The notes under the pieces were generated by a model. It was not told where the DNA came from. It ran no database searches and saw only the letters and a list, made by a program, of their open reading frames with translations. Shown piece after piece: positions 3,050 through 22,118 of a stretch of DNA of 49,866 bases. Position 1 is the stretch's first letter, and every line of letters begins with the position of its first letter. A program made the position numbers and the translations under genes. Source of the DNA: Fidelibacterota bacterium (lineage in GTDB: Bacteria; Fidelibacterota; Marinisomatia; Marinisomatales; SCKK01); contig SCKK01000024.1 in assembly GCA_004124475.1 (NCBI GenBank), positions 1-49,866 on the forward strand, written 5' to 3'.

Positions 3050-4423
3050 GTAGGAATTAATAATACGCTCGGATGTTTCATACGCATTCACAATGGTATC
3101 CGCTACAGAGATTCCATTCCGGTAATTCCCTGCGAAATACAATCCGGGGTACTGTTTCTCCAGGTCATTTAATTTTTCCTTAAAAGTTCCAAAACCCACA
3201 TCGTATTGAGGTATCGCCTGCTCCCAAAAGGTATGTTTGACAAAAGTAGGTTTGCTACGTACTCCTAACAGGGTCGACATATCTGCCAACGCCATATCAA
3301 TTAGCTCGGGTTCAGACTTTAAGGCATTTTCAGGTTGACGTGAACCACCGATGAAAATTGTTAATGTTACATGGTCCCTTGGAGCCCTGTTCGGGAAAAG
3401 TGTGGATGAAAAAAGAGCACCAAGGGTGTGAAAACCTTCAACTTTGGGAATTAGCATACCAAATCCGTTAAGAGGATGATCAACATCATCCCGTTTAAAT
3501 CCTAACACTAACACAGATACAGGTGGATGATAAATCTTTTGAAAAAATACAAAATCATCTTTTGATTGTTTGGACAATGTCATTTCTTTTAAACCAAAGG
3601 CTGTACCTGCATATACGATAGAATCAATAGTCGCAGTTTTCGTTGTATTATCCCCTTTTTTATAGCTTACCCGCCATCCCACTTTCATTGGTGTAACATC
3701 GTTTACAGTTGTGTCTTTTTGAATACTATCCCCAAGAGCCTTCTGAAAAGCTTCGGGTAATGTTTTTAACCCGTGAAGAAATGAAAACATGCGAGTACGT
3801 TGTTTGGGAGTTTCCCCATGTTTTTTCCGTTCCTTCGCACCAAATATTTGACCTTTTATCAAACTTCCATATTTCTGCTCAAGTTGATAAAGCTTTGGTA
3901 AAGCATGACGAACGCTAAGGTGATCAGGTTCTCCTCCGTACACACCAGCCACAAAGGGGTTGATGGCATAATCCAAAAACTCCTGCCCCAGTCGGCGTAC
4001 AACAAATTGCGAAAGCGACTCCTCATACTGATTGTCCCAAGCTTCAATAAACGGTTCCTTGAATATTCGCAGTTTAGCTACTCTACTAAATAAATTCGTT
4101 CTGAAGAATGACAATGGTGACAACGGCAGTGGAACCGGTTGTTGGTTTTTAACGATAAACCGAGTCTTTGCAGTATCATTTGCATATACTTTTTCACCAT
4201 CCAGTCCCAAATTTCTAACAATCTCAGATACCTTAGGCGAAGTTTCTAAAATGGTATTGGGACCGGTTTCCGCCAGATAACCATCCTCCTCAGTAGAAAA
4301 CATCACCCCTCCTACTCGCAAACTGGATTCAAAAAGAGTTACATCCAAACCTGCTTTTTTCAACAGGAATGCTGTGGTTAATCCAGCTATTCCACCACCG
4401 ATAATAACTACCGTCTTGCTCAT
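3044..4423 (-). CDS. hemY: oxygen-dependent protoporphyrinogen oxidase (HemY type)
   Basis: 459 residues, typical of the FAD-dependent HemY family (also called HemG in some annotations). It oxidises protoporphyrinogen IX to protoporphyrin IX using oxygen, at or near the membrane. The N-terminal dinucleotide fold is clear: VVIIGGGIAGL (glycines 8-10 and 13), the acidic end of strand 2 at FESS, then a RVGG motif. The C-terminal FAD motif reads GLYFAGNYRNGISV near residue 431. Start ATG overlaps the hemH stop by 4 bases (ATGA). As no HemQ is seen and HemF/HemN are present, the classical protoporphyrin route is more likely than the coproporphyrin route. Some HemY proteins can act on coproporphyrinogen, so substrate choice is inference. 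Confidence 0.93.
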   Translation of the reverse strand: MSKTVVIIGGGIAGLTTAFLLKKAGLDVTLFESSLRVGGVMFSTEEDGYLAETGPNTILETSPKVSEIVRNLGLDGEKVYANDTAKTRFIVKNQQPVPLPLSPLSFFRTNLFSRVAKLRIFKEPFIEAWDNQYEESLSQFVVRRLGQEFLDYAINPFVAGVYGGEPDHLSVRHALPKLYQLEQKYGSLIKGQIFGAKERKKHGETPKQRTRMFSFLHGLKTLPEAFQKALGDSIQKDTTVNDVTPMKVGWRVSYKKGDNTTKTATIDSIVYAGTAFGLKEMTLSKQSKDDFVFFQKIYHPPVSVLVLGFKRDDVDHPLNGFGMLIPKVEGFHTLGALFSSTLFPNRAPRDHVTLTIFIGGSRQPENALKSEPELIDMALADMSTLLGVRSKPTFVKHTFWEQAIPQYDVGFGTFKEKLNDLEKQYPGLYFAGNYRNGISVADTIVNAYETSERIINSYI

Positions 4424-6753: not shown

Positions 6754-7653
6754 TCATCCTGAGGTTTTCTGCTCAGCCCAATTACGGGGGGTCAGTATCT
6801 CAAAAAGCCGGGCTTCCTGACTTCCGGGGTCGGGTGTGAAGTTATATGGCCATGCCGCCAGAGGTGGAAGTGAGATAAGAACGGTTTCCGTACGACCCCC
6901 CGTTTCCAGACCGAACACCGTGCCTCTATCGTAGATCAGATTGAATTCTACGTACCGCCCTCTCCGGAGGAACTGAAACTCACGGTGCTCCCGGGAATAG
7001 TGCATCTTGTTCCGCTTCTCAAGAATGGGTACGTAAGCCTTAGGAAAGGTGCGTGCCACCTCGCAGGTAAAGGCAAATACCTGTTCAAGATTTTCTGTCA
7101 GGTAATCGAAAAATATGCCTCCTACGCCCCGGGGTTCATTCCTGTGCTTGATGAAAAAGTACTCATCACACCATTTCTTAAACTTGGGATAATATTGTGC
7201 ATTATGCTTATCGCAAGTTTCTTTTAACGTTTTGTGAAATTGAATGATATCTTCTTCAAACGGATAATAGGGGGTTAAATCAATGCCGCCGCCGAACCAA
7301 CGTTTTTTGCCGTGTTCTAGGTATCTCACATTCATATGCACCGTAGGAACAAATGGATTCTTTGGATGAAGCACCAACGAGACACCTGTGGCAAAAAACT
7401 GACGGTCATTCCCACCTTCTAAACGCCCTGCTATTTTCTCAGAAAGCTCTCCTCCTTCCACACTTGAGAAATTAACCCCTCCCTTTTCAATAATATCTCC
7501 TTCTAACACACGCGTAATTCCCCCGCCCGATCCAGCATGGTAATCCCATACATCCTCTTGAAAGGATTGACCAGTCACCTCTACTAAAGCATTACAAATC
7601 TCGTCTTGGATCAATTTGAAAGAATCAATGACCTTTTGTTGCAGGGTTAACAT
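6754..7653 (-). CDS. hemF: oxygen-dependent coproporphyrinogen III oxidase
   Basis: 299 residues, usual length. Aerobic counterpart of HemN for the same decarboxylation. Family signatures are visible: NPFVPTVHMNVRYLE, WFGGGIDLTPYYP, RGVGGIFFDYL, LRRGRYVEFNLIYDRGT and the C-terminal PPLAAWPYNFTPDPGS. The frame stays open 38 codons upstream to a stop shared with the toxin-antitoxin relic, but the family N-terminus fits the ATG at 7653. The upstream relic separates it from hemE by about 600 bases, so it may have its own promoter. Confidence 0.95.
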   Translation of the reverse strand: MLTLQQKVIDSFKLIQDEICNALVEVTGQSFQEDVWDYHAGSGGGITRVLEGDIIEKGGVNFSSVEGGELSEKIAGRLEGGNDRQFFATGVSLVLHPKNPFVPTVHMNVRYLEHGKKRWFGGGIDLTPYYPFEEDIIQFHKTLKETCDKHNAQYYPKFKKWCDEYFFIKHRNEPRGVGGIFFDYLTENLEQVFAFTCEVARTFPKAYVPILEKRNKMHYSREHREFQFLRRGRYVEFNLIYDRGTVFGLETGGRTETVLISLPPLAAWPYNFTPDPGSQEARLFEILTPRNWAEQKTSG

Positions 7654-8260: not shown

Positions 8261-9316
8261 TTAAGAAAAGATTTCATCTTTATCCAAAAAGTGAAACTTT
8301 GGACTCTCCTCTTTCACTGTATCCACCAGTACCTGAACAGCATCAAGAGGAACATCAGGAAAAATCCCATGCCCCAAGTTGAAAATATGGCGATGACCTG
8401 TTCCGTAGCTTTTCAGAAGTTCAATCACTTCATTTCTGATGGTGTTTCTGTTGGCATACAATACTGTGGGATCCAGGTTGCCCTGCAAAGATATGTTTTC
8501 CCCAACAATGCTGCGAACCTCACTTAAAGGGATGGCCCAATCTATTCCAATGACATCGCCATTTGTGGACTTTATTAAATCAAGCCAACTGTTTCCTCCT
8601 TTTACAAATAAAATGACAGGGACTTTTTCTTCTTTTACAGCAGCGACAATTCTTTTCAGATAGGGTAATGAAAAACGCTCAAACGTATTCCGAGTCAGAA
8701 GTCCCGCATTCGTATCGAAAATCTGGATGACGTCTACACCGGCTCGTATTTGTTCCTTCACATATTCAATAATTCCACGGGTAAGCTTTTCCATGAGTAG
8801 AGACAAGGAAGCTGGGTCGGAATACATCAATCCTCGAATACGGCGATGGTCTTTATGGGGTCCACCCTCAACAAGGTAAGTGGCTATAGTCCACGGCGCT
8901 CCTGAAAAGCCGATAAGAGCTTTATCTTTGTCCAGTTCATTCCTAACTAAGGAAATGGACTCAAATACATAATTCAATTGTGTTATATCAGCCACAAGTA
9001 ACTTCTCGATGGATTCACAAGAATCCACAGCTTCTTCAAAACAGGGACCTAACCCATCTTTTAATTGAAATGGGTGTCCCATAGCCTCAGGAATCACCAA
9101 GATATCCGAGAATATAATGGCTGCATCAAAGTCAAACCGGCGGATTGGTTGTAACGTAATCTTAGCGGCAAGTTCTGGTGTGTGCAACATGGTCAGAAAA
9201 TCATGCCTTCCCCGAATAGCCTGATATTCTGGCAAATAGCGACCTGCCTGGCGCATGATCCAAATCGGCGTTCGAGGAATCGAGTGTCCTAGACACGCAT
9301 CAACTAACAGAGACAT
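8261..9316 (-). CDS. hemE: uroporphyrinogen decarboxylase
   Basis: 351 residues, usual length. Removes the four acetate carboxyls of uroporphyrinogen III to give coproporphyrinogen III. The substrate-binding signature PIWIMRQAGRYLPEY is at residues 17-31. Other conserved segments are IIFSDILVIPEAMG, GFSGAPWTIATYLVEGG, FDTNAGLL and the C-terminal FNLGHGIFPDVP. Its start lies inside the 3' end of hemD (17-base overlap), which indicates translational coupling. Downstream, the operon is interrupted by the MNT/HEPN relic. Confidence 0.96.
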   Translation of the reverse strand: MSLLVDACLGHSIPRTPIWIMRQAGRYLPEYQAIRGRHDFLTMLHTPELAAKITLQPIRRFDFDAAIIFSDILVIPEAMGHPFQLKDGLGPCFEEAVDSCESIEKLLVADITQLNYVFESISLVRNELDKDKALIGFSGAPWTIATYLVEGGPHKDHRRIRGLMYSDPASLSLLMEKLTRGIIEYVKEQIRAGVDVIQIFDTNAGLLTRNTFERFSLPYLKRIVAAVKEEKVPVILFVKGGNSWLDLIKSTNGDVIGIDWAIPLSEVRSIVGENISLQGNLDPTVLYANRNTIRNEVIELLKSYGTGHRHIFNLGHGIFPDVPLDAVQVLVDTVKEESPKFHFLDKDEIFS

Positions 9317-19778: not shown

Positions 19779-20216
19779 TTAATGTGTTGATGCGGTTAAA
19801 TTCTCCAGAGAATGATAAACAGAATCCAGAATCCCATTCACAAAAGCTCCGCTTTCTGCGGTGCTGTATTTCTTGGCAATCTCCACACCTTCGACAATGG
19901 AAACTTTCGGGGGAATGTCGTCCATAAAGACCATCTCAGTGATCATCATCTGGAGTATAAGACGATCCACCAAAGCAACACGGTCATATTCCCAATTCTG
20001 AAGTCGACTGACAATTTCCGCTTTACTCCATTTCAGTTTTTCGATCGTCTTTTTTAACAGTTTACAGACGAAATCGTCTAACTCATTCTCGAACTTTTTA
20101 TCCTTTCTTTGGTCATTGAGGATTTTATCAGGATCATCGTGAGTGAGTTTATATGCATAGAGCGCCTGCAAAACGACCTCTCTCGCCTGGCGACGACTTT
20201 TAACGATGTATTTCAC
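19779..20216 (-). CDS. nusB: transcription antitermination factor NusB
   Basis: 145 residues, normal for NusB. Partner of NusE (S10) in rRNA antitermination. The N-terminal SRRQAREVVLQALYAYKLT motif and the C-terminal LVDRLILQMMITEMVF and EGVEIAKKYSTAESGAFVNG segments are characteristic. It heads the nusB-phosphoesterase-secA run. Immediately upstream is the low-complexity block around the four-helix gene. Confidence 0.94.
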   Translation of the reverse strand: MKYIVKSRRQAREVVLQALYAYKLTHDDPDKILNDQRKDKKFENELDDFVCKLLKKTIEKLKWSKAEIVSRLQNWEYDRVALVDRLILQMMITEMVFMDDIPPKVSIVEGVEIAKKYSTAESGAFVNGILDSVYHSLENLTASTH

Positions 20217-20230
20217 CTAAAAATAACTAT

Positions 20231-20425
20231 GAGTATGAAGCAAGGAGCAAGGAGAATTGGAGTAGTGGAGTAGTGCCTGCTCTCTGCTCCTGGTTCCCTG
20301 CTAAAACCCCGGGAAAGTTTAGGTAACGATGTAAGGGAGCTTGGGTGCGAGGGAGCTGGGGAGCCTCGGAGCTGGGGGGCTTCGGAGTTGGGGAGCAGGG
20401 GAGCGAGGTACCAATAGAGGACGAG
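20231..20425. repeat. G-rich degenerate array, left flank of four-helix gene
   Basis: Imperfect GGGAGC(G/T)(A/G)GG units on the plus strand, with a less regular part from 20231. The segment 20334-20364 is complementary at 27 of 31 positions to 21017-21047 on the other side of the four-helix gene. Frames of 72 and 105 codons across this block are artefacts of the repeat composition. Confidence 0.75.
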
Positions 20426-20525
20426 AACCATTCAATGAGAGCAAGAAAGTGGTGAACGAAAGGCAGACCGAAACGATGCATGAGGTGTTTTGAAGCTATA
20501 GGAGTCTGGAGGAACTTTTTCATGT

Positions 20526-20900
20526 TTACCTCTTTAGCAGCCAAGGATCAGGATTGTTTATCATATTGACCAGCTTACCCAAGATGTTGTCATAGTCACC
20601 AAATAACTTTTTATTGATACCCTCTTCCAAATATCCACAAGCCAACGAAAAGTCGAGCCATGTTTGCGTTTCGGCAGCTTCTGCTTCTGCGTCGTTCAAC
20701 TTTGCCACAAAGGCCGCCACGTATCGTCTTTTTCGCCACGCCTCAGCTATATTTGAACATACAGAACGGGAAGAGCGCCTAATTTGGTCAGTGAGCGAGT
20801 AGAGTTCTTCCTTCGGGTAGCCCTTCGATACTTTAAAGACGGCCATAGCACTTTTAAATGCTATCTGGTAGACCTCCAATTCTTTGTGACTCTGTATCAC
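20526..20900 (-). CDS. four-helix-bundle protein (23S rRNA intervening-sequence family)
   Basis: 124 residues, the standard size of this family. Signature parts: SHKELEVYQIAFKSAMAVF, YSLTDQIRRSSRSVCSNIAE (S/T-D-Q-x-R-R-x-S), AFVAKLNDAEAEAAETQTWL and the C-terminal amphipathic helix. The fold is the pentameric barrel shared with Avd proteins of diversity-generating retroelements. Function of free-standing copies is unknown. The gene is flanked by inverted low-complexity arrays, so the transcript could fold into a long stem with the gene in the loop, like an rRNA intervening sequence. No reverse transcriptase is seen near. Confidence 0.9.
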   Translation of the reverse strand: MIQSHKELEVYQIAFKSAMAVFKVSKGYPKEELYSLTDQIRRSSRSVCSNIAEAWRKRRYVAAFVAKLNDAEAEAAETQTWLDFSLACGYLEEGINKKLFGDYDNILGKLVNMINNPDPWLLKR

Positions 20901-20996
20901 AATGTGGTTTCCTCCTTTGTTCTTATCTTCCCAGCACTATGCTCTTGTTCCCGTACGTTTTACTAAGTCCCGTGTATCCTGAATCTCATCCATATG

Positions 20997-21075
20997 ACCT
21001 GCTCCTCTCCACCTCCGCTCCCCCGCTCCCTTGCACCCTCGCTCCCTGATCCCCCTGTACGCTCTCCCGAAGTTT
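20997..21075. repeat. C-rich degenerate array, right flank of four-helix gene
   Basis: Imperfect GCTCCC units on the plus strand. 21017-21047 forms the inverted partner of 20334-20364 (4 mismatches in 31). The array ends directly at the stop of the aminotransferase gene (21075). Confidence 0.75.
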
Positions 21076-22118
21076 CATTTATACATTGGGACAGGATGAA
21101 CCCATCCAAAAGGATCTTCGATCCTCTCACGCTGAATGCCGGTGAGGATGTCGTATAACTTCCGGGTCAAAGAACCAATTTCACCATCGCCAATTACATG
21201 AAAATCGTCATCGGTTGTAATTTTACCTATGGGTGTAATGACTGCGGCAGTGCCTGTACAAAAAACTTCATCAGCAAATAATACTTCATTGACCGTTACG
21301 TCTGTTTCCAATACCTTCAAACCAAGAATTTCCCGGGCAAGTTGAATGACCGAATCACGGGTGACCCCAGGAAGGATAGAACCTCCTAACTTTGGGGTTT
21401 TGAGTACATTATCTTTGAGAGTAAAAATATTGGCTGAACCAACTTCTTCCACGAGGTTTTCGTTAGTAGCATTCAGATAAATCACTTCATCGAAATCCTG
21501 CTCCTTCGCCAATTTCAGAGGATATAAAGAAGCCGCATAGTTTCCAATCGCTTTGGCATTGCCTGTCCCCTTCGGAGCAACCCTGTGAAAATATCTGGTG
21601 ACCTTTAAATGAAGTGCTCTCATACCCCCTTTAAAATAAGGTCCCACAGGTGAGACATAGATGACAAACGTGTACGATGGAGCTGGTTTAACCCCCAATA
21701 CCGGTCCTGTTCCCAAAATGATAGGTCTTATATACAGACTTCCCTTTCCCACCGGGGGAATATAATCGGCATTGCCCCGGACGGTTTTCTCCACTGCTTT
21801 TAGAAACATTTCCTCAGATACGGGAGGAATGCAAAGTCTTTCTGCGGAATGGATAAATCGTTTTGCGTTTCTATCAGGTCTGAATAATATATCTCTACCT
21901 TTCAAGGTTTTGAATGCTTTGGTTCCTTCAAAAACTCCCTGACCATAGTTTAAAACACCTGCTGCGGGAGATATCTTAAAATCGCCATAAGGCACCAAGT
22001 CTCCCGGTTCCCATTCTCCCCCTAAATCGCATGTAGCAAAATACATGCTTCTGGTTGGTGTTACGCTGAACGTTAGATTGTTCCAGTCAATTTTCTGTTC
22101 AACTTCTAATATTTCCAT
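21075..22118 (-). CDS. ilvE: branched-chain amino acid aminotransferase
   Basis: 347 residues, the longer class IV form similar to eukaryotic BCATs. Transfers amino groups between Leu/Ile/Val and 2-oxoglutarate. The PLP lysine is K189 in GTGNAKAIGNYAASLYPL. GQGVFEGTKAFK near residue 60, FRPDRNAKRF near 80 and the C-terminal EVFCTGTAAVITPIG support the family. It is last in an operon with thiolase and acyl-CoA dehydrogenase, only 3 bases after the latter, which suggests a role in branched-chain amino acid breakdown, though biosynthesis is equally possible chemically. Confidence 0.93.
   Translation of the reverse strand: MEILEVEQKIDWNNLTFSVTPTRSMYFATCDLGGEWEPGDLVPYGDFKISPAAGVLNYGQGVFEGTKAFKTLKGRDILFRPDRNAKRFIHSAERLCIPPVSEEMFLKAVEKTVRGNADYIPPVGKGSLYIRPIILGTGPVLGVKPAPSYTFVIYVSPVGPYFKGGMRALHLKVTRYFHRVAPKGTGNAKAIGNYAASLYPLKLAKEQDFDEVIYLNATNENLVEEVGSANIFTLKDNVLKTPKLGGSILPGVTRDSVIQLAREILGLKVLETDVTVNEVLFADEVFCTGTAAVITPIGKITTDDDFHVIGDGEIGSLTRKLYDILTGIQRERIEDPFGWVHPVPMYK

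Follow-up and report, generated by a model that had tools for sequence, protein, structure and literature searches.

Four-helix-bundle genes between matched heptamer or octamer arrays: a probable, very widespread form of mobile DNA not described before

The window, by which we mean the whole 49,866-nt stretch of DNA that was analysed (contig SCKK01000024.1 of a Fidelibacterota bacterium), carries a four-helix-bundle gene between nusB and ilvE, and this gene lies between two octamer arrays in inverted orientation. The features of the junction are:

19779-20216, minus strand: nusB (PF01029), one neighbour of the four-helix gene
20239-20303, no strand assigned: second array hairpin, adjacent and without a gene, GCAAGGAGCAAGGAG..CTGCTCCTGGTTCCCTGCT; paired in the fold, weak alone (z -1.5)
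20304-20317, no strand assigned: outer 14-nt end AAACCCCGGGAAAG, partner of 21062-21075 in the fold
20334-20404, minus strand: 3' arm in gene sense, an octamer array, C-rich on the coding strand; core 20334-20364
20526-20900, minus strand: PF05635 / TIGR02436 four-helix-bundle gene (23S rRNA IVP, S23p), 124 aa, identified by profile search
21016-21047, minus strand: 5' arm in gene sense, an octamer array, G-rich on the coding strand; core 21017-21047
21062-21075, no strand assigned: outer 14-nt end CTCTCCCGAAGTTT, pairs with 20304-20317 in the fold
21075-22118, minus strand: ilvE, the other neighbour, named from its own sequence

The 124-aa open reading frame has a GTG start preceded by AGGAGG, and it scored 101.9 bits against PF05635 (23S_rRNA_IVP; cut-off 33.8) and 92.5 bits against TIGR02436 (cut-off 24). 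The nearest solved homologues of its protein are 2RLD and 2GSC (Xcc0516 of Xanthomonas campestris), the latter with a profile match at E = 5.5e-35. It is the only open reading frame between the arms, and the element has no transposase of its own. No rRNA was found at 15-26 kb of the window, where the element lies at the ilvE-nusB junction.

We found that the arms at 20334-20364 and 21017-21047 align without gaps as reverse complements along 31 nt, 4 of which are mismatched, for an inverted-arm score of 42 (27 matches x 2 - 4 x 3); every number agrees with the first-pass annotation of this DNA. That annotation had also placed the cores within longer degenerate arrays, and both arms are indeed arrays of period 8 (about 20335-20404 and 21016-21047) that run on, longer and degenerate, around the cores. 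The fold that it had proposed as a check, of 20231-21075, is predicted to be one long stem closing over the whole element, with a fold energy lower than that of all 20 shuffles on both strands (z = -2.9 for the gene-sense strand and -4.4 for the opposite strand, 20 shuffles each). The outer end at 21062-21075 touches the ilvE stop codon (21075-21077) and is conserved in the sister species (G001); the outer end at 20304-20317 is not present at the nusB-ilvE site of G001.

Two further array arrangements in the window lack a gene. The hairpin at 20239-20303 is perhaps a remnant of another element. At 1755-1890, a TTGGTTC array is followed by an ACCACT(C) array; these two are not mutually complementary, and perhaps they are halves of two different elements.

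In the source genome (G000; 3.15 Mb, 95% complete), a profile search gave 26 PF05635 matches in about 22 genes, several of which are broken by stops, IS or small palindromic inserts. Most of these genes sit between inverted arrays of a 7-8 nt unit that varies across loci and matches within a locus (GTGTTC.., ACGTTAT.., GTGAGTA.., GTATAGG.., GAAACTTG.., GCAGTGG.. and AAGTAAC..). When each left flank was scored against the reverse-complemented right flank, the mean within-locus arm score was 31.6 compared to 20.7 in permuted loci, and 0 of 20,000 permutations reached the within-locus mean. Because the arms differ between loci and are constant only within recent subfamilies, they are not constant terminal repeats of the IS or MITE type. 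The pN/pS of the protein is about 0.45, with few changes, and selection on the protein looks modest.

As a control, 450 kb of DNA (the window plus 400 kb sampled elsewhere in G000) was searched for array-like inverted pairs and yielded the window pair and one other, which flanks a gene reading as anmK with 1.4 kb between its arms. Hence, the window arms are more than chance, since this search gave only one other pair. Together with the permutations within and between loci, the 450-kb control rules out that the arrays are generic low-complexity DNA. Inverted flanks at other four-helix genes, whose lack would have refuted the reading of the first-pass annotation, are present at most copies in this genome and in relatives (below). 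Flanks at loci without the gene, which it had counted against that reading, are rare as pairs in the 450 kb, and differences between filled and empty sites exist. Its reading is thus supported.

Several side observations concern the surroundings of these genes. At L191 (G000 C25), gene-less arrays at 6954-6978 and 8350-8460 lie on both sides of a gene reading as anmK, and on the right side a G-rich array is directly followed by a C-rich array. The sequence CTGCTCAAAGC[CT]ATTTT, with AGGTGAAA after it, occurs repeatedly ahead of unrelated genes, beside the ends of C-rich arrays (L056 at 3573-3595, L064 upstream of nusB, L008, and L095 near 465-490), and this block is perhaps a promoter or leader block or a piece of another repeat. 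At L010, L058, L008, L017, L024 and L026, arrays and four-helix genes contain inserted small palindromic repeats (CCTGCCCCGTAG..CTACGGGGCAGG; TCCCGAC..GTCGGGA). At L009 / L022 (G000 C15:46.6-48.5k), an IS-like stretch with transposase/integrase-like frames interrupts a four-helix gene.

PF05635 genes were found in 22 of the 41 genomes of the order, with 0-26 matches each. In a scan of GTDB genomes we obtained 80 loci, spread over more than 20 phyla, which include cyanobacteria, Bacteroidota, Chloroflexi, Planctomycetes, candidate phyla, Firmicutes and Proteobacteria, as well as one Methanophagales archaeon. We found that the inverted score exceeded all 60 shuffles in 57 of the 78 testable loci of this diverse set, compared to 9 of 78 for direct repeats; the other 21 had no significant arms. 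The mean arm score of the diverse loci was 37.4 within a locus vs 19.2 between loci, and their outer windows reached the score level of 34 in 1 of 66. Inverted arms were present in 21 of 27 loci of a second, HMM-picked set, which partly overlaps the first, and in 9 of 16 loci of a set of relatives. Of the 57 loci with significant arms, 54 have a G-rich 5' arm (in gene sense), and the array period is 7 in 39 and 8 in 12. No rRNA was found in 40 of the diverse loci.

The cleanest form occurs on Nostoc plasmids, where GGGAACA repeats lie opposite TGTTCCC repeats; units of the Nostocales elements include GGGAACA and GGGTGTA, and two orthologous Nostoc plasmid copies differ by exactly one 7-nt unit. 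Eighteen other genomes reached via the diverse loci, many of them isolates, hold 1-10 copies each. Hence, given its copies in many isolates, the element is not an artefact of metagenome assembly. On plasmids 1 and 2 of Calothrix brevissima NIES-22 (L217 and L218), an identical S23p element adjoins a phage-type integrase gene, and the two show no change across the aligned stretch.

Between co-directional neighbours, the element is in sense orientation in 78 cases and antisense in 1, and all twelve elements inspected singly, including every moved or polymorphic one, are sense to both neighbours (12/12). As a baseline, ordinary gene triples of G000 gave a sense:antisense ratio of 227:15, and 58:9 for short middle genes. 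Since ordinary triples are mostly sense too, the orientation bias is only partly informative, and sense orientation as proof of insertion at the RNA level is weakened by the same baseline. Hence, sense placement is notable mainly because the element has been shown to change position. The 5' array often starts at or within the stop codon of the upstream gene; in starting near the end of the upstream ORF, the elements are like the arrays of Xanthomonas, which average 28 nt from the 5' ORF (PMC4692102).

Changes of position were found by comparison with the sister genome G001, which is ~95% identical to G000 (flanks about 93-97%); these filled/empty differences were read without an outgroup, so that insertion and deletion are not polarised. 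At nusB-ilvE, the element in G001 is another one, a member of the GAAACTTG subfamily, next to a GGGAGC-type C-rich array that has been retained, and the G001 counterpart of the window gene (96%) lies at another site, with GGGAGC-type arrays. The first-pass annotation had pointed to nusB-ilvE for an empty site; the sister site holds a different element and is not empty, and filled/empty differences occur elsewhere. Two elements of G001 are missing from G000: at L055, four right-array units remain, and at L059 no array is left at the empty allele. Conversely, G001 lacks the elements at L003, L006 and L015, with two array units remaining at L003, and the empty alleles of L003 and L055 contain some matching array units. 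Two 'empty' sites (L092 and L210) retain a few array units, and because these units remain, loss by deletion is possible there. A possible target-site duplication, AAAACAT, was seen at L059 and none clear at L003 or L055; across the filled and empty sites compared, there was no consistent target-site duplication. The G001 site matching L026 was sought, and its flank was not found.

Four near-identical copies (L008, L023, L062 and L064, of which L062 is cut by a contig end) have array, ORF and array in common and nothing outside; two of them, L023 among these, lie inside or beside GGGAGC-type arrays. Hence, the differences from the sister genome and the boundaries of these copies show that a unit of array, gene and array moves or is exchanged. 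With presence/absence polymorphism and with copies at unrelated sites that have defined ends, the unit behaves like a mobile element in general, which the first-pass annotation had thought possible, and the direction of change is not polarised.

The arms themselves also change. Arm lengths differ by whole units between orthologues, and in the orthologue pair L016/L067 one arm has changed while the other is unchanged; this uncompensated change contradicts a strictly covarying stem. Copying of the arms from the target, insertion by insertion, is not supported either: recent copies that sit at new sites have retained their own type of array, although there are the matching units in the empty alleles of L003 and L055. 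Within the unit there is neither a transposase or recombinase nor a catalytic motif, and its ends have no fixed sequence.

How such a unit changes position can be read in several ways. It is highly improbable that the arrays are no more than common simple repeats between genes, with no relation to a gene that merely tends to be near them. Heptamer arrays do stand alone between genes in Xanthomonas and Nostoc (PMC4692102), and gene-less arrays exist in G000, but paired inverted arrays are almost confined to four-helix genes in the 450 kb of G000, units match within and not between loci, the arrays travel with the gene (L008/L023/L062/L064), and outer windows attain an equal score in 1 of 66; this reading is already contradicted. 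Recombination without transposition, in which recombination-prone arrays allow elements to be swapped, lost or spread by homologous or illegitimate recombination after horizontal transfer, is favored by the nusB-ilvE site of G001, where a GAAACTTG element stands with a retained GGGAGC-type C-rich array, by the position of L023 within GGGAGC-type arrays, by the units left at two empty sites and by the mixed gene-less arrays at 1755-1890 of the window. We regard it as unlikely, since the empty allele of L059 is array-free, near-identical copies at unrelated sites have nothing in common beyond the arrays, and the distinct copies are all in sense orientation. The unit could also be the passenger of a hairpin-recognising Y1 (IS200/RAYT-type) transposase that acts in trans, with the arms as hairpin ends and the IVP as cargo or accessory. 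In support of this, Y1_Tnp genes occur in 16 of the 22 genomes with IVP genes compared to 3 of the 19 without (Fisher p = 4e-4), small palindromic repeats are plentiful in G000, and Y1 transposase counts follow four-helix gene counts across the 41 relatives (rank correlation 0.64), although this correlation is confounded by phylogeny and by general mobile-element load. However, G034 (11 copies), G024 (6) and G037 (4; only 70% complete) have no Y1 match, and no common short hairpin end was seen; the arms vary by locus. Hence, with up to 11 copies in genomes without Y1, this transposase is at most one possible helper, and we doubt that the unit is its passenger.

Two further readings give the protein or its RNA a larger part. 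An RNA regulatory or processing element that benefits the host, such as an RNase III site that tunes the operon, would be host-kept and not selfish, with the IVP as its cognate RNA-binding factor; the sense position in operons, the predicted stem, some constraint on the protein and the RNase III excision shown for an rRNA IVS (PMC4990558) are consistent with it. We consider it very unlikely, since the elements are patchily distributed and vary even from one sister species to the other, stops, an IS or small palindromic inserts disrupt many copies, and one operon junction (nusB-ilvE) is occupied by different elements. Mobilisation via reverse transcription, as a DGR-like retroelement with an Avd partner, would suit both the resemblance of PF05635 proteins to Avd (PMC10053308) and sense insertion in transcripts. 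It can hardly apply here: no RVT_1 (PF00078) match was found in the 95%-complete G000 with its 26 PF05635 matches, nor in G034 with its 11 copies, and the presence of a reverse transcriptase showed no significant correlation with copies. Hence, since none was found in a genome with 26 PF05635 matches, a reverse transcriptase is seemingly not needed, and mobilisation of this kind is largely refuted for G000, barring an enzyme in the missing 5% or one too divergent for PF00078. The link to Avd that had been drawn for the window gene stands at the family level only (PMC10053308), and working of the DGR type is not supported because no reverse transcriptase was found in the genome.

The explanation that we favor, with moderate confidence, is a mobile hairpin element that includes rRNA intervening sequences as a special case. 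Its unit is a G-rich heptamer or octamer array, a four-helix IVP gene and an inverted C-rich array, about 0.5-0.7 kb in all; it would be co-transcribed with the host operon and presumably lacks a promoter of its own. The arms may pair in RNA, or in single-stranded DNA at replication, to form a long stem with the ORF in its loop. The oligomeric IVP protein may bind its own arms and promote copying or insertion of the unit, for which the chemistry could come from the host's enzymes of replication and repair or, in trans, from a hairpin transposase. The stem would let RNase III excise the element from the message, or would keep the insertion harmless; the arms grow and shrink by whole units, and an rRNA intervening sequence would be the identical element inside an rRNA operon.

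The gene that they carry has so far been studied chiefly within ribosomal RNA, and these gene-plus-repeats units seem to be a very widespread form of mobile DNA that has not been described before. More tentatively, at somewhat less than even chances in our estimate, they may form a distinct, very widespread class of mobile elements of bacteria and at least one archaeon, marked by sense insertion in transcribed operons, by their own RNA/DNA-hairpin-binding protein and by self-matching heptamer-array ends that evolve in concert, with rRNA intervening sequences and many heptamer arrays (STRRs, GGGAATC) as special cases and footprints. If this is true, a family whose members have for decades carried the label '23S rRNA-intervening sequence protein' or the label 'four helix bundle protein' gains a genomic context and hence a testable role, the origin of rRNA intervening sequences is explained, and the heptamer arrays reported separately in cyanobacteria, xanthomonads and Coxiella have a source. 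The ends are unusual in being of low complexity and locus-specific yet complementary within a locus, which raises the question of how both ends stay matched.

Among known systems, the element is like the 23S rRNA intervening sequences with an S23p/IVP ORF (Coxiella, Leptospira) in having a PF05635 ORF in the loop of a terminal-inverted-repeat stem and in being sporadic and horizontally transferred. The rRNA IVS of Coxiella has a 28-bp terminal stem and variable heptamers (GACAGAT) before its S23p ORF and is excised by RNase III (PMC4990558); Warrier and colleagues also recall older proposals that IVSs are mobile (PMC4990558). IVP ORFs were found as well in a survey of rRNA insertions in CPR (PMC11270868). 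Unlike these intervening sequences, the elements described here are in protein-coding operons, with 26 matches per genome, and their arms consist wholly of heptamer or octamer arrays that differ per locus. The first-pass annotation had likened the window copy to a free-standing version of an rRNA intervening sequence; with its PF05635 protein and its stem, the window element probably works like an rRNA intervening sequence and is probably related to it, but by its location, outside rRNA, it is not one.

The same annotation had suggested that such an element may be undescribed outside rRNA, and in the open-access literature (subscription papers and preprints lie outside it) we found no paper that joins free-standing PF05635 genes with heptamer arrays, the heptamers of the Coxiella rRNA IVS apart. 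The free-standing four-helix-bundle proteins (TIGR02436, and 2GSC, Xcc0516 of Xanthomonas) belong to the same protein family; unlike here, they are known only as single proteins, and the surrounding element is absent from the papers found. Avd of diversity-generating retroelements is reported to have a homologous four-helix fold (4DWL against 2GSC; PMC10053308), and the elements differ from it in that no reverse transcriptase was found in G000. Like MITEs, REPs and IS200/IS605-type elements, they are short hairpin-ended mobile units between genes; unlike them, they have no fixed terminal sequence and no transposase, and they hold a conserved protein gene.

For the arrays, Rehm and colleagues described GGGAATC arrays in Xanthomonas, where each genome has 70-75 convergent inverted pairs, and comparable arrays in Nostoc, GGGGA[CT]T, for which the link to a gene was not made (PMC4692102); TAACTGA arrays are reported in Beggiatoaceae (PMC4679880). 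Like the arrays of Xanthomonas and Nostoc and the cyanobacterial STRRs, those described here are degenerate tandem 7-nt G-rich units, intergenic and just downstream of the 5' ORF, although the window copy has period 8 where heptamers are the majority family-wide. Unlike in the array papers, in which no gene was linked (PMC4692102, PMC4679880), the arrays here are the paired ends of a four-helix-gene unit, and the published heptamer arrays in Xanthomonas, Nostoc and Coxiella fit a mobile hairpin element.
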